Assembly: GCA_031270015.1 (NCBI GenBank)
Contig: JAISYH010000016.1
Span: forward strand, 1-63,448
DNA length: 63,448 bases
Source: Burkholderiales bacterium
Lineage (GTDB): Bacteria > Pseudomonadota > Gammaproteobacteria > Burkholderiales > Casimicrobiaceae
Reading direction: 5' to 3'
Below the pieces are notes generated by a model. It worked only from the letters and a program-made list of their open reading frames with translations. It did no database searches and was not told where the DNA came from. Position 1 is the first letter of the stretch. Each line of letters opens with the position of its first letter. Shown one piece after another: positions 25,338 to 38,312 of this stretch. Made by a program: the position numbers and the translations under genes.

Positions 25338-27146
25338 ATGGAAAAATCAGCAGCGAACGGTAGCGTTAGGTTGGGTTCTGCATCGGCGGGCGGCTTGGAC
25401 TATGCGAAAAGCGTATTGAGGGATAGATGCCCTGGCGATTCTCGCTCATTCATGAAATTTGCCGCGTTGTTCGGCGCGGTATTCAGCAAGAAGTCGGAGC
25501 GTCATCAAAAAGCATCCTTGCTTCCATGCCGGGAAGCAAAACAGCACGAAGCAAGACACCACGAAGCAAGACATTACAAAAAAGTTGGGTTATCGGCATT
25601 CGTGGCAGCGATGTTGTGTATGGGCGTTGCCGCGCAGGCGGCGACGATCACGGTGAACAGTGCTGTTGACGCGCTCACCGATGGCGGCAACTGCACGCTG
25701 CGCGGGGCGGTAAATGCTATCAACGCCGGCAGCGATCGAAACAACTGTGTCGCCGTCGTCTCGCCCGATGCTTACGGCAGCAACGACACGATCACATTCG
25801 ACGCGGCGGTATTCGCCACGCCGACCACCATCGACGTGACCGCCAGTGGCGAAATCGTCATTACCAGAAGCCTCACCATCGAGGGATTGCTGGATGTCGA
25901 TGACGCTCCGCTGATTACGCTTGATGGCAAGAGCGCCAATCGCATCCTGAATGTCTCCAGCGCTGTCTCTGTTCTTGCTGTTTCGGGGTTGGCTTTTCAG
26001 AATGGTAGTGTGGCAGGCTACAGCGACGGCGGCGCGATTTCTGCCAATGGCAGCAGCACCACCGTCATTGTTCGCAACAGCACATTTGAGAACAATCAGG
26101 CAGCCCATTACGGCGGCGCGATTTATGCCCGCAACAACGTCAACATCAGCGCCAGCACCTTTGAAGGCAATCAGTCCATCGGCGACGGCGGCGGCGCGAT
26201 TTAAGCCTCCAACGCCGCCAATATCAGCAACAGCACATTCGAGAACAATCATGCCGCCTACGGCGGCGCGATTTATACCGTTACCGCCGATGTCAGCGAC
26301 AGTACATTCCGTGACAACCAAACGCTCATCGGCAGTGGCGGTGCGATTTATGCCAGGAGTGTCCTTAACATCAACGGCAGTGTGTTCAGTGACAACAAGT
26401 CCGCTAGCTATGGTGGCGCGATCCGCGCCGACGGGACATCTGTGGTCGCGATCAGCAACAGCACATTTTCGGGCAATCAGGCAGAAGGCGACTACGGCGG
26501 CGCGATTGCCTTCACAGGGAATACGCTTCGAGCCAGCCACTTGACACTACTCGACAATAGCGCAGCCACAAATGGCGCGGCGATCTACTATGGAGGTAGC
26601 GGCAATGGCATCATTCATAACAGCCTTGTCCTTTCCAGTGCCGCGCTTGTCGGCGCGCCGGCATTGTGCGCGGTTGGTGGCGCGGGCAGCATTGGCGGCA
26701 GCTACAACATCGAATGGGTGAATGGCGCGGACACGACAAACTGCGGCGGCTCAAACAACGTTTCCGGCGGCAGCGGCGCGATTGGCGCTATTGTCGAAAC
26801 GACGCTTGCCGACAACGGTGGACCGACGCCAACGCTGGCATTGCCGGCGGGCAGCCCGGCCATCGGCGCGGTAGATCCAAGCGGCGTGACCTCGCAGATG
26901 TTCGTCATCGATTCTTCGCAAATATGGTCGACGGGAACATGGGAGGACGCCACGCTCGATCAGCGCGGCGTCGCTCGCGCCACAACGCCAGCGGAACGTT
27001 CAATCGGCGCGTTTGAATACAAAGCGCCGCCGCCGCCGCCGGTGAATGCCGCGCCAATTCCTGTTCTGCCCGCGTCGCTCATGCTTTTGTTGGCGTTGGG
27101 ATTGGCGGGAGTCGGGTTCAGGAGGCTGAAAGTCGCCAAGAGCTGA
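25338..27146 (+). pseudogene. Secreted repeat protein (choice-of-anchor Q type, IPTL-like C-terminus) with one internal stop
   Basis: A single frame of 603 codons is interrupted once by TAA at 26202-26204, where repeated GGAIYA motifs show that a Tyr codon (TAT) is expected. The product would have a very long N-terminal region (about 100 residues, with an EARHHEARH repeat) before a signal-peptide core ending AAQA, then parallel-beta-helix-like repeats (NSTFENNQAAHYGGAIYA, DSTFRDNQTLIGSGGAIYA). Further on come the choice-of-anchor Q end (ADNGGPTPTLAL, DQRGVARAT, IGAFEYK) and a C-terminal sorting-type helix (PIPVLPASLMLLLALGLAGVG, RR-like tail). It is an adhesin-like surface protein by appearance. 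Confidence 0.8.
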
Positions 27147-27379: not shown

Positions 27380-27410
27380 AAAGAGTGGAGAAGTTTCTCC
27401 GCTCTTTTTT
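27380..27410. terminator. Bidirectional terminator between convergent genes
   Basis: A 12-position stem AAAGAGTGGAGA/TCTCCGCTCTTT (one G-T pair) with T runs on both strands. It lies downstream of the minus-strand porin gene. Confidence 0.8.
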
Positions 27411-27492
27411 ATTACTTTCTATCCGTTGGAAAACGGCGTATGGCGCGTTTTCATCGAAGGGTTATTTATTAATTACGATGATCGTTTTTCGA

Positions 27493-29841
27493 TCATTCAA
27501 ATAGATAAGCCGCTGTCAAGAAGAACCAACTGTTGTGGTAGTTCGCGGTGGTCAGATTTGCGCCGAGAACGTTATTGGACGCGGCGGGCGCGGCTCCGTC
27601 ATAAGCCCAATCTTTGCCGCGTAGCCGCTCATAGGCGTAAGTCGCGCGGAGCTTCCAGTTTTTATTCCACTGATAGCTGCCGAAAAGCTGGAACGAACTC
27701 ATCCGATATGTCGCGTCGGGCAGCGGTTGATTGGTAAACGCTTCGTTGCCGCCCGTGGTGTTGCTCATCGACCACTTCCCGAAATCGTAAACATACAAAA
27801 ATCCATAATCGTATTGGCGTTCTTCCGGCGTAAAGCGCATGCCGATGCCGACTGTGTTGTTGGCGCTCTTCAAGTCCGCCGTCCAGTTGCGCGTTTGATC
27901 AACCGCGGAGGTGGTTCTGTTATTCACCCAGCGGCTGATTTGATCGAACTCTGCCCGCGACCATGTGTAAAATCCGAAAGTGCTCAAGCCTTCCATCGGT
28001 ATCCACTGAAGATCGATTGTGTACGATGGCGACGCTGATTGTGTTCGTCCCATACAGGTTGCGTCTAAGACATAACCATCCGGCAGGATTTGGTCACTTG
28101 TGCCACCGCAATCGGGACCCTTATATTTTCTTTTGTTCCAGTCCGCCAACAGCGATACGGAAACCGTGTCCGTCGGCGTGATATTGAGCGAGCCGTATAC
28201 GCGGTCTTGTTGATAATCGGCGGCGAGGAATTGTCGCAATGATGGCAATGTATCGAATCCATCGCCCGCCGATACCGTTCCGTCGGTATAGCGCCAACGA
28301 TAAAGACGCGCGTTATCGAATAGTGAACCTGTGCGTTCAGAACGCTCGTATTTCACCCAGCCGGTAATGTATTCGTTCGCGGTTTTGTGCAGTTCGATCC
28401 CCGCCGTTTGATCTTTCGTATCGTCGCGCAAGTTCGCCGCGCTTGGCGAATAATCGGTTTTCTTGAAGTTGTAATAGCCTCGTACCGAAAACCCGGGCAT
28501 GATCGAATAACCCGCGTCTATATCAAAACGATTTTCTTTTTTAGAGTTTGCGCTGTTATAACGCAACTGCGAGGAGTTGATGGAATCGGGGTCTAAAACG
28601 TCGCTCAAATTTACCGCTGGAACGGTGTCGTTGGTGACAACATTATAAAGGTCGAGCGGCGTTTTGTTGTCGTATTCGTAATAACGATAGCGCGCTTTGA
28701 CGCTCAATTTAGGCAGCGGGCGGCTCGTCAGTGATAAATTGGCGAGTTTCGTATCAACTTTTCCATCCAATGAATTGCGCGGCAACGCCGGTGAATCCAA
28801 CGCGGGCGTATTGATCGTATAGGGTAAAAAAGATTGGTTTTGCCGACTTATCCCATAGGAGAGAACGCCGGTGATTCTGGTCGAGAGTGGCAAGTTGTAG
28901 CCGCCGGAAACCCGTAGTTGATGATAATGATTGTCGGGGAAAAACGAGCTTTGTCCGAAGCCATTCGGAAAACCTGTACCGGAGGTCCACGCCGCTGGCG
29001 CGTGGTAGGCGTTTTGCCAAGTGATGCGGTCGTCGCCCGCATCGTAATGCGAATAATAGTAACCGGCTTCAAGTTGCGCTTTGTCCGTGCTCCAGCGTAT
29101 TTTAGCGTCGATCTGATCCGTGCTGTCGTCTAATGAATATGGAAAAATCGCCGAACGCGGTGAACCGCCATGCCCAAAAACGCCACTCATCAGATAGGTT
29201 CCATCACGCTGGTCGCGGCGAAAATCGACCAGCGCTTGAATTTCGGGCGTGATGAATACGGAACCACCAAGTTTATAAGTATTTCGTTTCAACGCGACAT
29301 CGTAAGATTTCAGCGCCGCTTCGATATCGACTGACGACATGGGTGGCTGACCGGCGATGCCCGGAAAACCGCTCGGCAACGTTAAATGATTGCTGCCCAG
29401 ACCATCGTAAATAAAGCGTGTCGAATCGCTGATATTGTGCGGTATGCCTTGATAACTCGCCGTCAGACTATACGTACCTTGTTTACCCAAGCTACCGTTG
29501 AATTGCCGAGAATCAAGTCCGATATTGGTCCCCGAAAGATTCCAATAATCGGCGCTTGCCGCGTCTTTCTTCACGAAGTTGAAACCGCCGAACCAATAAA
29601 GTTTGTCTTGCGTAAGCCCCGTCCATTCGCCTACCTTGAATGAATCTTCGTTATTGATCATGATTCCCAACTCGATGTGATTTTCGTCGTATCGGCTCAT
29701 ATCTGCGCCGCGGTTCATCGGCACCCAGAAATACGGTTCCGCGAAAAGCGGCATTGCCAATATCGTTGCGATTGCCGCAACGAAAGGCATGACGAGCCAT
29801 CGCGTATTAGTATTACTTTTATCAAAACGGTTCGTTTTCAT
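27493..29841 (-). CDS. mtoB: MtrB/PioB-family outer-membrane porin for a decaheme cytochrome
   Basis: Proteins of this family form a large beta-barrel that sheathes a periplasmic decaheme cytochrome, letting electrons cross the outer membrane (MtrB in Shewanella metal reduction, PioB and MtoB in Fe(II) oxidation). The 782-residue precursor has a signal peptide ending LFAEP, the family start (IELGIMINNEDSFKVGEWTGL), alternating aromatic strand patterns throughout, and the decaheme-associated features GGFNFVKKD and NWKLRATYAYERL. Start ATG 29841 has GAAGGAAAAAACG upstream. It follows the cytochrome gene by 24 bases. The symbol is by analogy; direction of electron flow cannot be read from sequence. 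Confidence 0.87.
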   Translation of the reverse strand: MKTNRFDKSNTNTRWLVMPFVAAIATILAMPLFAEPYFWVPMNRGADMSRYDENHIELGIMINNEDSFKVGEWTGLTQDKLYWFGGFNFVKKDAASADYWNLSGTNIGLDSRQFNGSLGKQGTYSLTASYQGIPHNISDSTRFIYDGLGSNHLTLPSGFPGIAGQPPMSSVDIEAALKSYDVALKRNTYKLGGSVFITPEIQALVDFRRDQRDGTYLMSGVFGHGGSPRSAIFPYSLDDSTDQIDAKIRWSTDKAQLEAGYYYSHYDAGDDRITWQNAYHAPAAWTSGTGFPNGFGQSSFFPDNHYHQLRVSGGYNLPLSTRITGVLSYGISRQNQSFLPYTINTPALDSPALPRNSLDGKVDTKLANLSLTSRPLPKLSVKARYRYYEYDNKTPLDLYNVVTNDTVPAVNLSDVLDPDSINSSQLRYNSANSKKENRFDIDAGYSIMPGFSVRGYYNFKKTDYSPSAANLRDDTKDQTAGIELHKTANEYITGWVKYERSERTGSLFDNARLYRWRYTDGTVSAGDGFDTLPSLRQFLAADYQQDRVYGSLNITPTDTVSVSLLADWNKRKYKGPDCGGTSDQILPDGYVLDATCMGRTQSASPSYTIDLQWIPMEGLSTFGFYTWSRAEFDQISRWVNNRTTSAVDQTRNWTADLKSANNTVGIGMRFTPEERQYDYGFLYVYDFGKWSMSNTTGGNEAFTNQPLPDATYRMSSFQLFGSYQWNKNWKLRATYAYERLRGKDWAYDGAAPAASNNVLGANLTTANYHNSWFFLTAAYLFE

Positions 29842-29865
29842 CGTTTTTTCCTTCAATAATCGTCG

Positions 29866-30888
29866 TCAGCGAGTAAAGCGCCCACCTGCCGGATGATTGC
29901 TGCCGTGAATCTTCGTATGGCAATTCTGGCAGCTCATACTGAGCATCTTGTCTGCGGCGACGGCAGGCGGCAAATTGGAGCCGGAGAAAAACTGCGGCGG
30001 ATGCCCCATCGTCGGGATATGACATTGCTGGCACAACTGTGGGCGACGCGCCTTTAATAGCGGTATGTTGTTCGTGCCGTGTGGCGAGTGACAATTGACG
30101 CAACTATCGCGCACGGGCGTATGCTCCCATAAAAATGGTCCGCGTTTTTCCGCGTGGCAGGTATAGCAAGTATCGTTGATCGTGTCTTTGATCATCAGAC
30201 GGTCAGCTTCGCTGCCGTGCGGTTGGTGGCATGAAACACACGACATTTGTCCGGTACGAATCGGATGCGTCGAAATGCGCATGATTTCCGCGCGTATGTT
30301 TTTGTGGCAGGTGAAACATACGCCTGCTTGCGTCGTTTGCGTGGTGACCTGATCCTTTGTGGTGTGCATCGTGTGGCAATCGGTACACGCGACATTGGCG
30401 CGCTCATGCGCGCCGCCTTCCCAGTGCATTCGGTTGCCTCCTTGATGACAGACGAGACACTTTGCCACTTTTTCGGTGTGCGGCGTCGTTTTATTAAAAA
30501 CCGTTTCGGGTTTTTCTTCGATTGGATTTTCGATATGTTGATTCGCCTTGCCGTGGCAAGACAGACATTGATTACCATCACCCCACGGCGTGCGCGCGTC
30601 ACCCGAAACGCCATGACGTGTCGAAATCATTTTGTCGTATTGCTCTTGATGGCATGCCGCACATTGCGCGACCAACTCTTCGGTGGTCATTGGCGCATTC
30701 GCCGCTTGCGCGTCGGCTGGCGATTCGGTTTTTGAAGTGTCTGCTACCGGAGCATGGGTTGATATTTCGGCTTTCGCTGGCGCGGCGTCGGCGCTTTTTG
30801 GTTCAGCGGCAATGGCAAAGGCTGTGTTACCTAACGCCGCCACAATGACGTAAAACCTTAAAAAAGAAAGAAAAGCATGTTTTTTCAT
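29866..30888 (-). CDS. mtoA: DmsE/MtrA-family decaheme c-type cytochrome
   Basis: The 340-residue precursor has a signal peptide, an Ala/Pro/Ser-rich spacer and exactly ten CxxCH heme sites: CAACH, CLSCH, CLVCH, CTDCH, CFTCH, CVSCH, CYTCH, CVNCH, CQQCH and CQNCH. Size and heme number match MtrA, PioA and MtoA, the periplasmic wires that insert into MtrB-type porins. I start at ATG 30888; a GTG at 30903 is in frame upstream. No outer-surface cytochrome (MtrC/OmcA) or inner-membrane quinol oxidase (CymA) gene lies next to it. A perfect FNR-type box about 130 bases upstream suggests induction at low oxygen. Confidence 0.9.
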   Translation of the reverse strand: MKKHAFLSFLRFYVIVAALGNTAFAIAAEPKSADAAPAKAEISTHAPVADTSKTESPADAQAANAPMTTEELVAQCAACHQEQYDKMISTRHGVSGDARTPWGDGNQCLSCHGKANQHIENPIEEKPETVFNKTTPHTEKVAKCLVCHQGGNRMHWEGGAHERANVACTDCHTMHTTKDQVTTQTTQAGVCFTCHKNIRAEIMRISTHPIRTGQMSCVSCHQPHGSEADRLMIKDTINDTCYTCHAEKRGPFLWEHTPVRDSCVNCHSPHGTNNIPLLKARRPQLCQQCHIPTMGHPPQFFSGSNLPPAVAADKMLSMSCQNCHTKIHGSNHPAGGRFTR

Positions 30889-31015
30889 AATGATAACCTG
30901 CACATATAATTATCTGATCACTTTTTGAAGCCAATTTGTTGACAAAAATTATCAACAATATTTTCTTAAAAATCTACTTTCGTTCGGAATTTATGCAGAG
31001 ATATATCCTATAAAT

Positions 31016-31029
31016 TTGATCTATATCAA
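31016..31029 (-). promoter_or_regulatory. FNR/ANR-type binding site
   Basis: TTGATCTATATCAA is a perfect match to the TTGAT-N4-ATCAA consensus of FNR-family regulators. It lies about 128 bases upstream of the decaheme cytochrome gene in an AT-rich region. A second imperfect dyad GTTGA-N9-TCAAC lies nearer the gene at 30938-30956. Confidence 0.75.
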
Positions 31030-32019: not shown

Positions 32020-32069
32020 TAAACATATATGATTACTATGTTTTGTTATTTTTAACAGGTTCTAACTCG

Positions 32070-32978
32070 ATGGAACTACTGGATTTGGTCGGAAATACAC
32101 CGTTGCTTGTTCTGCCCGCCGTATCGAAAAGTGTGGCGGCAAGGGATATTATGCTCTTTGCAAAAGCGGAGTTTTTTAATCCATCGGGATCGGTCAAGGA
32201 TCGCGCCGCGAAAGCGATGATTTTGGGTGGGTTACGTGAAGGGTTACTTGCAAAAGGTAAAACGATCATCGACGCGACAAGCGGCAATACCGGCATTGCT
32301 TACGCGATGATCGGCGCGGCGCTTTCTTTTCCGGTAAAAATCTATTTGCCCGCCAACGCCAGCGCCGAACGTAAAGGAATGATCCGGCATTATGGCGCGG
32401 AAATCGTCGAAACAAGTCCGTTGGAAGGTTCGGACGGCGCGTATTGGGCGGTGAAAGAAGAAATTGCGGCTCACCCCGAAAAATATTTTTATCCTGATCA
32501 ATATCATAATGACGCGAACTGGAAAGCGCATTACACGACGACCGCGCCGGAAATTTGGACGCAAAGCGAACAGAGGATTACTCATTTTATTTGCGGGATG
32601 GGCACTTCCGGTACTTTTGTCGGCGTATCCAGACGGCTCAAGGAATACAAAACCAATATTCGGACGATAGCGATTCAACCCGATTCGCCGTTTCATGGCA
32701 TCGAGGGCACGAAGCACATGGCGAGCACATTGAAGCCCGGGTTTTACGACGAAACGTTGCCGGACGAGGTGATCGAGATCAGCACGGAAGGAGCTTATGC
32801 AATGAGCCGTCGCCTGGCGCGTGAAGAAGGCATTCATGTGGGCATAAGCTCCGGCGCCAATGTGTTGGGCGCTTTGAAGTTGGCGGAAACTTTGCCGAGT
32901 GGTTCGGTGGTCATCACGATTCTATGTGATACCGGCGCTCGTTATGTGACCGATCAATTCTGGAGCGGTCATGATTAA
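32070..32978 (+). CDS. cysM: CysM-like cysteine synthase (PLP-dependent)
   Basis: The 302-residue enzyme has the PLP lysine K43 (NPSGSVKDR), the substrate loop TSGNTG at 70-75 and the phosphate loop GMGTSGT at 176-182. Overall it resembles CysM of the mycobacterial CysO pathway more than CysK, including the segment aligned with the O-phosphoserine-binding Arg220 of M. tuberculosis CysM, where this protein has a Lys (about residue 215). Such enzymes replace the leaving group of an activated serine with sulfur, here probably from the carrier protein encoded two genes downstream. Its 3' end overlaps the JAMM gene by 8 bases. Start ATG 32070 is weakly supported by AGG. Confidence 0.85.
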   Translation: MELLDLVGNTPLLVLPAVSKSVAARDIMLFAKAEFFNPSGSVKDRAAKAMILGGLREGLLAKGKTIIDATSGNTGIAYAMIGAALSFPVKIYLPANASAERKGMIRHYGAEIVETSPLEGSDGAYWAVKEEIAAHPEKYFYPDQYHNDANWKAHYTTTAPEIWTQSEQRITHFICGMGTSGTFVGVSRRLKEYKTNIRTIAIQPDSPFHGIEGTKHMASTLKPGFYDETLPDEVIEISTEGAYAMSRRLAREEGIHVGISSGANVLGALKLAETLPSGSVVITILCDTGARYVTDQFWSGHD

Positions 32979-33399
32979 ACTATATACGATATTAGTCGAG
33001 GCAATCCGGCAGGAGGGGGAGAAAACTTATCCCAACGAATGCTGCGGCTTCATACTGGGGCAAATCAAAGAAGATGGCGTGAAAGAAGCGGAAACGCTGA
33101 TTCCGATCAAAAACGCGCGAGAGGCTGAAGAGCAATATCATCGTTTTGAAATAGGACCGGAAGATTTTATAAAAGCCGATAATCAGGCGCGCAAGGAAAA
33201 TCAGGAGATCATTGGATTTTATCATTCGCATCCCGATCATCCCGCCTATCCTTCCGAATACGACAGGGAACACGCCCTGCCTTTTTATTCGTACATTATC
33301 GTCAGTGTGGATAAAGGTACGGCGTCCGCGATTACCAGTTGGGAACTCGAGGCGTCGGATCGATCACGTTTTATTGAGGAGAAAATAGTATGGCAATAA
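32971..33399 (+). CDS. mec: JAMM/MPN metalloprotease (Mec-like)
   Basis: The 142-residue protein carries a complete JAMM zinc site: Glu23 (PNECCGF), then H85-x-H87-x7-S95-x2-D98 (HSHPDHPAYPSEYD). In mycobacteria Mec releases cysteine from the CysO-cysteine adduct; in Pseudomonas QbsD trims extra residues from a ThiS-like carrier. Either or both roles fit here because the neighbouring carrier ends with residues beyond Gly-Gly. It overlaps cysM by 8 and the carrier gene by 10 bases, so the three are translationally coupled. Confidence 0.9.
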   Translation: MIKLYTILVEAIRQEGEKTYPNECCGFILGQIKEDGVKEAETLIPIKNAREAEEQYHRFEIGPEDFIKADNQARKENQEIIGFYHSHPDHPAYPSEYDREHALPFYSYIIVSVDKGTASAITSWELEASDRSRFIEEKIVWQ

Positions 33400-33677
33400 G
33401 AATTTACATTCCTACCGCTTTGCGCGGTTTTACCGATCGTAAAGGTGAAGTATTGGTGGAAGGTAATACGGTAGGCACAGCGCTTACAGCGCTAATCCAA
33501 GTATACCCCGACATCAAGCCACATCTTTATCACAACGGTGGCGTTGAGCTGCGATCATTCATCAATATTTACGTTGGGGAATCCAGTATCAAAAAACTGG
33601 ATGGTCTTGAAACCAAAGTCCCCGAAGGCGGTTCCATTATGCTGGTTCCCGCCATTGCGGGAGGAAGTATCCGTTAA
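33390..33677 (+). CDS. cysO: CysO/ThiS/MoaD-like sulfur carrier with C-terminal extension
   Basis: The 95-residue ubiquitin-fold protein resembles M. tuberculosis CysO (MAIRIYIPTALRGFTDRKGE, RSFINIYVGESSIKKLDG, EGGSIMLVPAIAGG). The carrier's C-terminal glycine is normally adenylated and turned into a thiocarboxylate. Here three residues, Ser-Ile-Arg, follow the Gly-Gly before the stop, so the protein should be made as an inactive precursor needing proteolysis, most simply by the JAMM protease next door. GAGGAG lies upstream of the start. It shares one base with the next gene. Confidence 0.9.
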   Translation: MAIRIYIPTALRGFTDRKGEVLVEGNTVGTALTALIQVYPDIKPHLYHNGGVELRSFINIYVGESSIKKLDGLETKVPEGGSIMLVPAIAGGSIR

Positions 33678-34867
33678 TGGAAAGCGTGATCAAAAACCAC
33701 GAACTGCCTGATTTAAGCAACGACGAAATCAGCCGATTTAGTCGGCATTTGCTTTTGCCGGAAGTCGGTATCGATGGGCAAAAACGCCTCAAGGCGGCAA
33801 AGGTGCTCATCGTGGGCACGGGCGGATTAGGCGCGCCTTTGGTATTGTATCTTGCTGCCGCCGGTGTGGGCACATTGGGTATCGTGGATTTTGATTCGGT
33901 GGAGGAGTCCAATCTGCAGCGGCAAGTGATCCACGGGATACGTGATGTGGGGCGTCCCAAGGTGGCGTCGGCGCGGGATCGCATCAAGAACATCAACCCG
34001 GGCTGTAACGTAATCACTTATAACACGGCGTTGACGAGCGCTAACGCGCTGGAGATATTGAAGGACTATGATGTGGTCGCGGATGGCACCGATAATTATC
34101 AAACGCGCTATCTGGTCAACGACGCCTGTGTGCTTTTGGGCATTCCCAATGTCTATGGATCGATCTTCCAGTTCGAAGGACAGGCGTCGGTATTTTACGC
34201 CAAAGAAGGTCCGTGTTATCGCTGTCTTTATCCTGAACCGCCGCCGCCCGGACTCGTGCCTTCCTGCGCCGAAGGCGGCGTGGTGGGCGTATTGCCGGGA
34301 ATCGTGGGCAGCTTGCAGGCGAATGAAGTTATCAAACTCATCGTGGGCTCTGGTACCGGTTCGCAAAATCCTTCCACGAGTCTCATTGGGCGATTACTTT
34401 TATTCGATGCGTGGGCATTGAAATTTCGCGAGCTTCAGTTGGATAAGGATGATAATTGTCCTGTGTGCGGAGAACATCCCAGCATCCACGAATTGATCGA
34501 TTATGAGCAATTCTGCGGTCTCAAGAGAACGTCGGACGAAACGCCGGTGGAAATCATCGAACCGAAAGAACTCAAGGCGCGTCTGGACGCGGGCGATTCC
34601 CTGCAAATCATCGATATTCGTGAACCGCACGAACGGGCAATCATCAAATTCCCGCAAGCAAAAACCATTCCTTTGGGGCAAATGGTTCGTCGTATCGACG
34701 AATTCAATCCGAAAGTGGATTCGGTATTCATTTGCAAGATCGGGCAACGAAGTATTTTTGCAATACGCGCTTTACAAGAGGCTGGTTATACAGGAAGGCT
34801 TCTCAATCTGCGTGACGGACTTAACGGTTGGGCCAAAGAAGTAGATCGGTCTTTTCCAATTTACTAA
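33677..34867 (+). CDS. moeB: MoeB/MoeZ-type adenylyltransferase-sulfurtransferase with rhodanese domain
   Basis: The 396-residue protein has an E1-like domain (nucleotide loop GTGGLG at 47-52, NLQRQVIH, active-site region PSCAEGGVVGVLPGIVG with C197, zinc cysteines CYRC at 180-183 and CPVC at 261-264) and a C-terminal rhodanese domain from about residue 292 with active cysteine C353 in CKIGQRS. It should adenylate the carrier and pass persulfide sulfur to it. As in MoeZ, the rhodanese domain is the entry point for sulfur, which in this operon may come from the encapsulated desulfurase. Confidence 0.92.
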   Translation: MESVIKNHELPDLSNDEISRFSRHLLLPEVGIDGQKRLKAAKVLIVGTGGLGAPLVLYLAAAGVGTLGIVDFDSVEESNLQRQVIHGIRDVGRPKVASARDRIKNINPGCNVITYNTALTSANALEILKDYDVVADGTDNYQTRYLVNDACVLLGIPNVYGSIFQFEGQASVFYAKEGPCYRCLYPEPPPPGLVPSCAEGGVVGVLPGIVGSLQANEVIKLIVGSGTGSQNPSTSLIGRLLLFDAWALKFRELQLDKDDNCPVCGEHPSIHELIDYEQFCGLKRTSDETPVEIIEPKELKARLDAGDSLQIIDIREPHERAIIKFPQAKTIPLGQMVRRIDEFNPKVDSVFICKIGQRSIFAIRALQEAGYTGRLLNLRDGLNGWAKEVDRSFPIY

Positions 34868-34893
34868 TATTAATTTTACTTAAGGAGAAAGAA

Positions 34894-35847
34894 ATGTCGG
34901 AAAAAGCATTGAAAGCATTAGGACGCGATGCCGCCTACCAACTTGCGAACGTTGCCAAAACACGTCCTCAATACGGCGCGTTGACACCCAAGTGGTTGTC
35001 GAGAGTCTTGGAGTTCAAAGGGCTTGAATCGGGCATTTATCGCGTGAACCGAGTGGTGGAAGGAGAAACGCCGCTTGATGCGTTGTGCAACCAAGACCCC
35101 AAGAAAATAGATATTCCCAAAGGCTATATTGAATACGAAACCAAGCCGCGCGAATACCGGCTTTCTTCGATCTCTACAATTGTCAATGTGGATACAAAAA
35201 TACAAGATGTGTACAGTGTTCCTTACGATCAAACGCAAGAACAAATCGCGCTTGCGGTAGAAAGTTTGAAAGAACGGCAAGAAAGCCAAATCATCAATAA
35301 CGACGATTACGGTCTTCTGAAAAACGTGGCGGACAGCCAGCGTATTCAACCTCGTTACGGTCGTCCGATACCCGATGATTTGGACGAACTGATTACCAAA
35401 GTGTGGAAAGATCCTTCTTTCTTTCTCGCGCATCCGCGCGCTATTGCGGCATTCGCGCGTGAATGCACTCGTCGCGGCGTGCCGCCGGCTACGGTGAATA
35501 TCGCGGGTGGTACGTTCATTTCCTGGCGTGGTATTCCCATTATCCCAACGGATAAACTTTTCGTGGACGGACTCAAAAGTCCGACGGCTAAAACTGGGAA
35601 AACCAATATTCTGCTTGTTCGCACGGGAGAAAGTAAACGCGGCGTAGTCGGGTTGTATCAAACGGGGCTGCCTAGTGAACAAGCGCGGGGGATTTCAGTG
35701 CGTTTTCGCGGTATCGATGATAATGGTGTCGCCTCGTATTTGCTTTCGGTTTATTGCTCCGCGGCGATTCTGGCGACGGATGCCTTGGCGGTATTGGAAG
35801 ACGTAGAAGTCGGGGATTATTATGACTATACCCAAAACCCCGTATAA
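34894..35847 (+). CDS. Family 2A encapsulin shell protein (SrpI-like)
   Basis: The 317-residue protein matches the HK97-fold shell proteins of family 2A encapsulins, with the N-terminal arm (ALGRDAAYQLANVAKTRPQYGALTP), INRVVEG-like and YSVPYDQTQEQIALAVE segments, the DYGLLKNV region, RRGVPPATVNIAGGTFISWRGIPIIPTDKL, and the long C-terminal part ending DYYDYTQNPV. Such proteins self-assemble into icosahedral capsids; the homologues in Synechococcus and Acinetobacter enclose a cysteine desulfurase, and the latter stores elemental sulfur. The start at ATG 34894 has TAAGGAG upstream. The next gene, a desulfurase, overlaps its last 26 bases. Confidence 0.9.
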   Translation: MSEKALKALGRDAAYQLANVAKTRPQYGALTPKWLSRVLEFKGLESGIYRVNRVVEGETPLDALCNQDPKKIDIPKGYIEYETKPREYRLSSISTIVNVDTKIQDVYSVPYDQTQEQIALAVESLKERQESQIINNDDYGLLKNVADSQRIQPRYGRPIPDDLDELITKVWKDPSFFLAHPRAIAAFARECTRRGVPPATVNIAGGTFISWRGIPIIPTDKLFVDGLKSPTAKTGKTNILLVRTGESKRGVVGLYQTGLPSEQARGISVRFRGIDDNGVASYLLSVYCSAAILATDALAVLEDVEVGDYYDYTQNPV

Positions 35848-37360
35848 TCCCGCCGATTACGGATTGCCTTCCGAAGCGGATCTGGCGCGTTTTGCTTCTC
35901 TCTGGTTTTCTGAGTTTGACATTGCGCAGGTCGAGGATTCCAAAGTAGTAGCGGATGAGATTGTAAGTGAAAGCGAAAGCCATTTGTCGCCGACCCTGCA
36001 ATTTGCGCGTAATACTCCGGCGTATTCTCCAAAAGTATTATCCAAAGAGCAATTGGAAATAATGCCGTATTTGACTGAATCTGCAATCGCCACGGATTTG
36101 CCCGCGAATCGCGGCGAAAATTCGAGCGCGCGATACGTCGGCGCCAAGAGCATCGACGCGATTCGTGCCGATTTTCCGATTCTTTCCGAGAAGATCAATG
36201 GTCACGATCTCGTCTGGTTGGATAACGCGGCAACGACGCAACGTCCCAAAGCGGTGATCGAGCGCCTCGTTCATTATTATGAGCACGAAAACTCGAACGT
36301 GCATCGGGGCGCGCATGAACTTGCGGCGCGATCTACCGATGCGTATGAGGGAGCGCGTGAGAAAGTCGCCCGCTTCATCGGCGCGCCGTCGGCGGATAAT
36401 ATCGTATTCGTCCGCGGAACGACCGAAGGCATCAATCTGGTTGCGCATGCTTATGTGAAGCAATTATTGAACCCCGGAGACGAGATCATTCTCACCTTGC
36501 TGGAACATCACGCCAATATTGTACCCTGGCAAATCATTGCTGGAGAAACAGGCGCGTTGATTCGTGTTGCGCCCGTCGACGCAAGTGGACAGATCGTTTT
36601 ATCGGAATACGAACGGCTCTTCAATCATCGCACTCGTTTTGTCTCGGCGCCTCAGGTATCCAATGCGTTGGGTACGATTACACCTATTGCCGAAATGATC
36701 CACATCGCCCACGCGCATGGCGCGCGCGTTCTGGTCGATGGCGCACAAGGCGTTTCCCATATACCGGTCAATGTAAGCGCGCTCGATGCGGATTTTTATG
36801 TTTTTTCGGGACACAAGATATTTGCTCCTAACGGTATTGGCGCGTTATACGGCAAAGAAGAGGTATTAGAAGCGGCAAAACCTTATCAGGGCGGCGGCAA
36901 TATGATTGCCGACGTGACGTTCGAGCGGACGCTTTATCAGAAACCGCCAGCCAAATTTGAAGCCGGAACTGGAAGCATCGCCGACGCGGTGGGATTGGGT
37001 GCCGCGCTGGATTATGTGTCGATTATCGGCATGGAACATATCGCGGCGTGGGAACACGAGCTTGTCCAATACGGAACGAAAGAACTTTCCAGAGTACAGG
37101 GATTGCGTCTTTTGGGAAACGCGACGGAAAAAGCCAGTGTGCTTTCTTTCGTGCTGGAGGGTTTCGATCTCGATAAAGTAGGAAAGTATTTAAACACGAA
37201 AGGAATCGCAGTTCGCGCAGGGCATCATTGCGCCCAGCCCATTCACCGATTTTTCGGCGTGGAAGGCTCGGTTCGTCCTTCGGTGGCTTTTTATAATACG
37301 TTTGAAGAAATCGACAAACTGGTACGCGCGCTTTTCGAGCTGACCGGAAAGAGATGGTAA
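35822..37360 (+). CDS. Encapsulin cargo: SufS-type cysteine desulfurase with N-terminal extension
   Basis: From about residue 111 the 512-residue protein is a group II (SufS/CsdA) desulfurase: IDAIRADFPILSEKINGHDLVWLDNAATTQRP, PLP lysine K332 in SGHK, active cysteine C470 in RAGHHCAQP. It converts cysteine to alanine and an enzyme persulfide. Residues 1-110 are not part of the enzyme; they are low in predicted structure, with conserved-looking islands (YNPADYGLPSEADLARFASL, FARNTPAYSPKVL) like the cargo-loading regions of family 2A desulfurases, though shorter than in Synechococcus. Overlap with the shell gene suggests coupled translation and fixed stoichiometry. Confidence 0.92.
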   Translation: MTIPKTPYNPADYGLPSEADLARFASLWFSEFDIAQVEDSKVVADEIVSESESHLSPTLQFARNTPAYSPKVLSKEQLEIMPYLTESAIATDLPANRGENSSARYVGAKSIDAIRADFPILSEKINGHDLVWLDNAATTQRPKAVIERLVHYYEHENSNVHRGAHELAARSTDAYEGAREKVARFIGAPSADNIVFVRGTTEGINLVAHAYVKQLLNPGDEIILTLLEHHANIVPWQIIAGETGALIRVAPVDASGQIVLSEYERLFNHRTRFVSAPQVSNALGTITPIAEMIHIAHAHGARVLVDGAQGVSHIPVNVSALDADFYVFSGHKIFAPNGIGALYGKEEVLEAAKPYQGGGNMIADVTFERTLYQKPPAKFEAGTGSIADAVGLGAALDYVSIIGMEHIAAWEHELVQYGTKELSRVQGLRLLGNATEKASVLSFVLEGFDLDKVGKYLNTKGIAVRAGHHCAQPIHRFFGVEGSVRPSVAFYNTFEEIDKLVRALFELTGKRW

Positions 37361-37364
37361 TGCA

Positions 37365-38312
37365 ATGGACACTCGCTTGAAATATTTGACGAATCTACTG
37401 ACAGAAAGTTATGCAAAACACGAAGAGATCATCAAAATAAATTCGATCAATCTCTTGAACCGCAAACTTATTGTCGATATCGTCGAAAAACTGCGCAGTC
37501 TGATATTTCCCGGATATTTTGGAAAGAAAAATATATCGGCAGCATCAGTAGAATATTATACGGGATATCTTCTGGAAGAATTGAGCTTTTCGTTGTCGGA
37601 ACAAATCGCGCGCGCCTTGAAGCACAGCGGCGATTACGCCGACTTGGATGATAGCGTGGTCGCCGGTAAGGCAAAGGAAATTAGCTTTCAGTTCTTATCC
37701 AAATTGCCAGAAGTTCGCGCTTATCTTGCCGACGATGTGTCCGCTTCATTCGATGGTGATCCAGCGGCATTTAGTTTAGATGAAATCATTTCTTCTTATC
37801 CGGGTATTTACGCGATTACGGTATACCGTTTGGCGCACGAGCTTTACGAGCTTGCCGTGCCTTTGATTCCGCGCGTGATGACCGAACACGCGCATAGCGT
37901 TACCGGCATCGACATCCATCCGGGCGCGGTGATCGGGCATCATTTCTTCATCGATCACGGAACGGGCATCGTGATCGGCGAGACGTCGATCATTGGCAAT
38001 TTTGTGAAAATATATCAAGGCGTGACGCTAGGCGCGCTTTCCACACGCGGTGGACAAACACTGAAACAGGTCAAACGCCATCCAACGATAGAAAATCACG
38101 TGACGATCTATTCCGGCGCCTCCATCATGGGCGGCAGTACCGTCATTGGCGAAGGCGTCGTGATTGGCAGCAACGCTTTCGTCACTAAATCGGTGCCCGA
38201 AAAGACCAAAGTCAGCGTCAAGAATCCTGAGTTGCAATTTAAACCGGCGACTTCTGGAAAAGTGGTATCTGTCGAACTGGAGCAAACCGAGTTTTGGGAT
38301 TGGATGATTTAA
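37365..38312 (+). CDS. epsC: Serine O-acetyltransferase EpsC/CysE
   Basis: The 315-residue enzyme has a long helical N-terminal domain and a left-handed beta-helix of hexapeptide repeats (GIDIHPGAVIGHHFFIDHGTGIVIGETSIIGNFVKIYQGVTLGALS), with the catalytic His in DIHPGA. It makes O-acetylserine, the acceptor for sulfur in cysteine synthesis. It lies 4 bases after the desulfurase gene, closing the operon, and is of the EpsC type usually found with family 2A encapsulins. Its presence argues that O-acetylserine rather than O-phosphoserine feeds the CysM-like enzyme. Confidence 0.92.
   Translation: MDTRLKYLTNLLTESYAKHEEIIKINSINLLNRKLIVDIVEKLRSLIFPGYFGKKNISAASVEYYTGYLLEELSFSLSEQIARALKHSGDYADLDDSVVAGKAKEISFQFLSKLPEVRAYLADDVSASFDGDPAAFSLDEIISSYPGIYAITVYRLAHELYELAVPLIPRVMTEHAHSVTGIDIHPGAVIGHHFFIDHGTGIVIGETSIIGNFVKIYQGVTLGALSTRGGQTLKQVKRHPTIENHVTIYSGASIMGGSTVIGEGVVIGSNAFVTKSVPEKTKVSVKNPELQFKPATSGKVVSVELEQTEFWDWMI

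Follow-up and report, generated by a model that had tools for sequence, protein, structure and literature searches.

The closest described systems to the locus reported in this work are the porin-cytochrome conduits that consist of a decahaem cytochrome and an outer-membrane barrel. The Mto cluster of Sideroxydans lithotrophicus ES-1 encodes MtoA, MtoB, the tetrahaem cytochrome ImoA, and the monohaem cytochromes MtoD and PmcA, of which PmcA is an interaction partner of ImoA as well as of MtoA (PMC13390432). The other systems to be compared are MtrCAB-CymA-STC/FccA and DmsEFAB of Shewanella and PioABC of Rhodopseudomonas palustris TIE-1. The etrA (Fnr) mutant of Shewanella oneidensis has reduced transcripts of mtrCAB, hya, frd, cymA, and nap, and its rate of Fe(III) reduction is unchanged (PMC3078092). 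It has been reported by Baker et al. that MtoA and PioA form no function-specific clade and that the direction of the electrons is not inferable (PMC8805035). The same paper cites mutants of S. oneidensis that have no outer-membrane cytochromes and regain iron reduction through changes in MtrA and MtrB (PMC8805035). The genome described here appears to encode a network for anaerobic respiration that is similar to that of Shewanella and is equipped with an MtrC-less, Mto-like conduit.

The window, which is the whole stretch of 63,448 nt that was analysed, is one contig (C44) of a metagenome-assembled genome (MAG) of 1.94 Mb that consists of 59 contigs and is 95% complete, so that absences from this genome are soft. 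The features of the mtrAB locus are shown in Table 1. The first gene had been described in the initial annotation as that of a ten-haem MtrA-like cytochrome, which is borne out by the number of its haem motifs, by a score of 264 bits against the TIGR03508 profile (cut-off 192.2), and by a match of 1.4e-67 to 6r2q_A, which is chain A in the structure of the Mtr complex. The second gene follows on the same minus strand after a gap of 24 nt. Its description as an MtrB/PioB-type porin agrees with scores of 331 bits against TIGR03509 (cut-off 240) and 369 bits against PF11854. The AlphaFold2 model of this protein (pLDDT 76.9, with a poor signal region) has a predicted barrel fold and matches MtrB of the solved MtrCAB complex (6r2q_B) with an E-value of 1.5e-41 and a TMt of 0.88, which is far better than the match to any other barrel. 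The predicted barrel would sheathe MtrA. The locus holds both a decahaem cytochrome of the MtrA/DmsE family and an adjacent barrel of the MtrB/PioB type, as in the MtrAB/MtoAB porin-cytochrome conduits, and the solved homologues of both families support the initial reading of a conduit for extracellular electron transfer (EET).

Table 1. Positions in the window of the features of the mtrAB locus.
Feature	Position	Strand	Description
mtrA-like gene, decahaem c-type cytochrome, periplasmic/outer-membrane	29866..30888	minus	ATG start; 340 aa; exactly 10 CXXCH
mtrB-like gene, outer-membrane beta-barrel (predicted fold)	27493..29841	minus	782 aa; no CXXC
Hairpin in the gap that separates mtrB from the facing gene, T-runs on either strand	27382..27412	.	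Found by eye, unscored
FNR box TTGATCTATATCAA (minus-strand reading TTGATATAGATCAA)	31016-31029	minus	Starts 128 bp upstream of the mtrA ATG
Candidate -10 element CATAAA	30990..30995	minus	4/6 to consensus, by eye

No further haem protein adjoins mtrAB in the window, as had been stated for surface cytochromes. An MtrC/OmcA outer-surface decahaem cytochrome was found beside mtrAB neither in the window nor in the four congeneric loci, so these loci do not have the metal-reducing MtrCAB arrangement in which MtrC or OmcA is encoded with MtrAB. On its strand, mtrB is not followed by a third gene. The locus is similar to PioABC in its MtrAB homologues without MtrC and differs from it in that no gene for a PioC-like HiPIP comes after the pair. 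Judged from the sequence, the two genes appear to form one operon that encodes a porin-cytochrome conduit of an established type without MtrC, and the hairpin beyond mtrB is a probable two-way terminator.

The genes upstream of mtrAB (32043-38312, plus strand) point away from the pair and encode a cysteine synthase, a JAB peptidase, a MoeB-rhodanese protein, an encapsulin, a cysteine desulfurase, and a serine acetyltransferase-like protein. The encapsulin is a family 2A shell protein (473 bits, cut-off 380), and the cysteine desulfurase resembles encapsulin cargo with a score of 783 bits that is below the cut-off of 800. These genes form an apparent encapsulin sulfur-storage cluster. A gene for a surface protein with PMP repeats and a choice-of-anchor-Q domain (25452-27146, plus strand) is broken by a single in-frame stop codon, so that it is a pseudogene unless the stop comes from an error of the assembly. 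The congeners have a gene for a CBM_4_9-like secreted protein without haem directly 3' of mtrB (L147:7891-8496, L148:11133-11753, L149:11495-12127, and L150:5131-5772). This protein is possibly an accessory surface part of the conduit; the only CBM_4_9 homologue in the genome of the window is distant and unlinked to mtrAB.

The same families of decahaem cytochrome and barrel also occur in DmsEFAB of Shewanella, and TIGR03508, the cut-off of which is exceeded by MtrA, is named after the DmsE family. The pair could on these grounds be a DmsE/DmsF-like module that feeds a surface reductase of DMSO/TMAO or iodate. However, TIGR03508 models a subfamily and is not specific to DmsE, and no dmsA or dmsB gene was found in the vicinity of mtrAB, either in the window or among the congeners. 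Unlike DmsEFAB, the locus encodes no DMSO reductase, and the three PF00384 matches of the genome were each assigned by sequence reading to another enzyme, namely NapA, NuoG, and a formate dehydrogenase with selenocysteine. The DMSO-reductase module was rejected on the neighbours of mtrAB and on these molybdopterin proteins, and we consider it highly unlikely. The initial annotation had regarded a grouping with DMSO-reductase modules as an argument against its own reading, and no such grouping is seen from the gene content (the MtrA tree described below does not contain DmsE). The gene of the formate dehydrogenase (L168:1183-4233) has an in-frame TGA that is probably read as selenocysteine, in a genome of 1.9 Mb.

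The perfect FNR box that had been reported about 128 bases upstream of mtrA was recovered at that distance and is the sole perfect FNR box of the window. Under a first-order Markov model, a perfect box is expected 0.0006 times in 250 bp and 4.8 times in the genome, which has 14. Several of the 14 boxes sit within genes and look like chance occurrences. Conservation in the congeners is a stronger argument than this excess that the box before mtrA is not due to chance. The congener boxes are perfect in L148 and L149, have one mismatch in L147, and are degenerate in L150, and the distance from the box to the first haem codon is 348-366 nt in the window, L147, L148, and L149. The mtrAB genes of the congeners adjoin mnmA, which is a chromosomal site other than that of the window. 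A chance origin of the box was rejected because the same distance is kept despite the different site. The locus thus has a conserved TTGAT-N4-ATCAA at promoter distance. The control of mtrAB by FNR may not be strict, since the box is degenerate in L150. The wider relatives mostly lack the box: a perfect copy within 650 nt was found in 9 of the 105 loci scanned, a count that takes in the window twice (as WINDOW and as L188). The candidate -10 element would set the FNR box at about -40 relative to the start of transcription.

An oxygen-sensing Fnr protein is encoded in the genome (L050:4218-5042). It scores 234.8 bits against PRK11161 (cut-off 228), and its motif CNLCGMRGLC has the Cys-X2-Cys-X5-Cys spacing. 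This protein and the conserved box argue for the oxygen-responsive, FNR-type control that had been suggested for the pair. Perfect FNR boxes also precede the genes of a HyaAB-type hydrogenase and its cytochrome b (by about 116 bp) and a Wolinella-type frdCAB (by about 70 bp), and a box with one mismatch stands some 100 bp ahead of napDAGHB, a cluster that lacks napC. Two more perfect intergenic boxes (L052:867-880 and L056:4052-4065) are followed by genes with no evident respiratory link. The genome also encodes a cbb3 oxidase and nos genes, where the names nap, nos, cbb3, NuoG, and formate dehydrogenase rest on sequence reading and gene order. Two small tetrahaem cytochromes are encoded as well, and one of them adjoins a flavocytochrome-c-type FAD protein. 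The tetrahaem gene and the gene of the FAD protein at L049:3683-5673 have the form of a split FccA-like reductase.

Fnr is one of two Crp/Fnr regulators in the genome, and the second is without the Fnr cysteine spacing. DNR-type regulators recognise the same box as Fnr. The box could then be read mainly by the second protein, for example as a nitric-oxide sensor, and the expression of a real conduit would follow nitrogen oxides instead of oxygen, which would fit the nap and nos genes of the genome. However, one of the two regulators is a clear Fnr, and the box is shared by the hydrogenase and fumarate reductase genes. Control by the second regulator is for this locus rather improbable, and activation by Fnr is preferred.

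The initial annotation had stated that CymA is missing. This holds beside mtrAB and does not hold for the whole genome. The search of the genome for cymA and mtoD homologues, which it had proposed, identified one NapC/CymA-type (NapC/NirT) tetrahaem protein on another contig (C35), unlinked to mtrAB, and its gene has its own FNR-like box and is followed by the gene of a small, Mto-type monohaem cytochrome. NapC is present in 11/11 genomes of the genus, and the monohaem gene comes after napC in all nine congeneric loci that were read. The upstream DNA of the nine napC loci is unalignable apart from one conserved block, TTGATNTRGATCAG or a near copy of it, which ends in ATCAT in one locus. Many Mto-like loci have the gene of a monohaem cytochrome of the same type as that after napC upstream of their mtrA; the monohaem, NapC, and mtrA genes form a single run in L151 and L158, and the nearest outgroup loci have the monohaem and NapC genes beside mtrAB as in Mto clusters. 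The mtrAB genes were found in only five of the 11 genomes of the genus (that of the window and four of the ten congeners searched), where G003 was left out since its match is weak and to another haem protein. NapC is therefore not dedicated to MtrAB, and it must have another role in the genomes where mtrAB was not found.

The genes of an MtoAB pathway, that is, MtrAB without adjacent MtrC, a tetrahaem protein of the NapC/ImoA type, and a monohaem cytochrome, are all present, but they are split between C44 and C35. The genome thus seems to have an Mto-type pathway in two separate parts, and an FNR-like site is present at both. It is similar to the MtoAB-ImoA-PmcA/MtoD system of ES-1 in the decahaem cytochrome and barrel without MtrC and in the NapC-type tetrahaem and small monohaem cytochromes as likely partners (PMC13390432). 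It differs from that system in that the partners are unlinked from mtrAB, FNR boxes and anaerobic respiratory genes are present, no RuBisCO was found, and iron oxidation is not indicated. The likeness to the Shewanella system comprises the MtrA and MtrB homologues, the stand-alone NapC/CymA-type hub with napDAGHB, the small tetrahaem cytochromes, the flavocytochrome-c-type reductase, and the Fnr-linked hya, frd, nap, and mtr genes. Unlike in Shewanella, there is no adjacent MtrC, MtrA lies outside the cluster of S. baltica MtrA, a perfect box stands directly at mtrAB, and the monohaem partner is Mto-like.

The MtrA tree was constructed from 109 sequences that include S. baltica MtrA, taken from the PDB alignment, and do not include Shewanella DmsE/MtrD, R. 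palustris PioA, or ES-1 MtoA. The MtrA of the window and those of the four congeners form a clade (100/100), which is joined by L007, L008, and L068 (100/99). The same neighbours were obtained by MtrB identity. The MtrA of the window falls outside a cluster of 24 rows that consists of S. baltica MtrA and most MtrC-bearing loci (90/87; the deeper forks are weak). This position, the lack of an adjacent MtrC, and the Mto-style outgroup loci would suit electron uptake as in MtoAB/PioAB, where an extracellular donor such as Fe(II) would supply electrons that pass under microoxic or anoxic conditions through the monohaem cytochrome and NapC to the quinone pool. The cbb3 oxidase, nap, and nos gene products could then take the electrons, with O2, nitrate, or N2O as the acceptor. 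However, no PF00016 match was found in the 95%-complete genome, so the RuBisCO expected of a lithoautotrophic host of the MtoAB pathway was not identified. The genes that share the box (hydrogenase, fumarate reductase, and nitrate reductase) are an anaerobic, H2-fed set, and the sole congener of known source is gut-associated and not from an Fe(II)-rich site. The direction of flow was not read from the phylogeny, since its deep forks are weak and MtrAB of oxidising and of reducing function are not resolved from each other in published trees (PMC8805035). Uptake is the main rival, though an unlikely one, and the Fe(II)-oxidation role that had been drawn from the likeness to MtoAB/PioAB is not supported, given the anaerobic regulon, the failure to find RuBisCO, and a phylogeny that gives no direction. 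The preferred reading, and a somewhat probable one, is that the conduit exports electrons from respiration.

In the export model, falling oxygen would lead Fnr to activate mtrAB along with the unlinked NapC/CymA-type quinol dehydrogenase and the monohaem cytochrome. The uptake hydrogenase, the fumarate reductase, and the periplasmic nitrate reductase, which have FNR-like boxes, would be induced together with them. Electrons from H2 and formate would enter the quinone pool and pass to NapC, and the monohaem cytochrome, the small tetrahaem cytochromes, or both would carry them across the periplasm. From these carriers, the electrons would reach MtrA threaded through MtrB and then an extracellular acceptor, for which humics or Fe(III) are plausible in a termite gut. 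The absence of an adjacent outer-surface cytochrome counts against the model and leaves the final exit of the electrons unexplained. Further points against it are the unchanged Fe(III) reduction of the S. oneidensis etrA mutant and the occurrence of NapC in genomes where mtrAB was not found. We consider it fairly probable that the whole model holds, in which an Fnr-activated, MtrC-less mtrAB conduit and a NapC/monohaem hub export electrons from H2 and formate. The components are ordinary and the type of conduit is already known; the box is well supported and the surrounding anaerobic network is coherent.

The habitat evidence comes from one congener (L067), the MtrA sequence of which is identical to that of G006. 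Its accession prefix, JAITBX, falls within the range JAIRJQ-JAITXW of MAGs from termite gut metagenomes (PMC11257099), and by this range it is a termite-gut MAG. Ingested Fe(III) is near-completely reduced during gut passage in soil-feeding termites, according to a review passage in which no reducing organism is named (PMC8124324). No paper was found in the literature on EET in termite-gut Burkholderiales. We tentatively propose, as a possibility of modest weight, that this is a gut-restricted, genome-reduced genus of termite Burkholderiales in which an MtrC-less conduit under FNR control serves the respiration of H2 and formate, with humics or Fe(III) as the acceptor.

The direction of electrons through MtrC-less MtrAB is a stated open question in the literature (PMC8805035). 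The conserved FNR box that is common to mtrAB, the NapC hub, the hydrogenase, and the fumarate reductase ties this conduit to anaerobic respiration, and the congener with the JAITBX accession is a concrete candidate for Fe(III) reduction in the termite gut. If the proposal is true, the genus would be one agent of Fe(III) and humic reduction in that gut, with an Mto-type conduit that is run outward.
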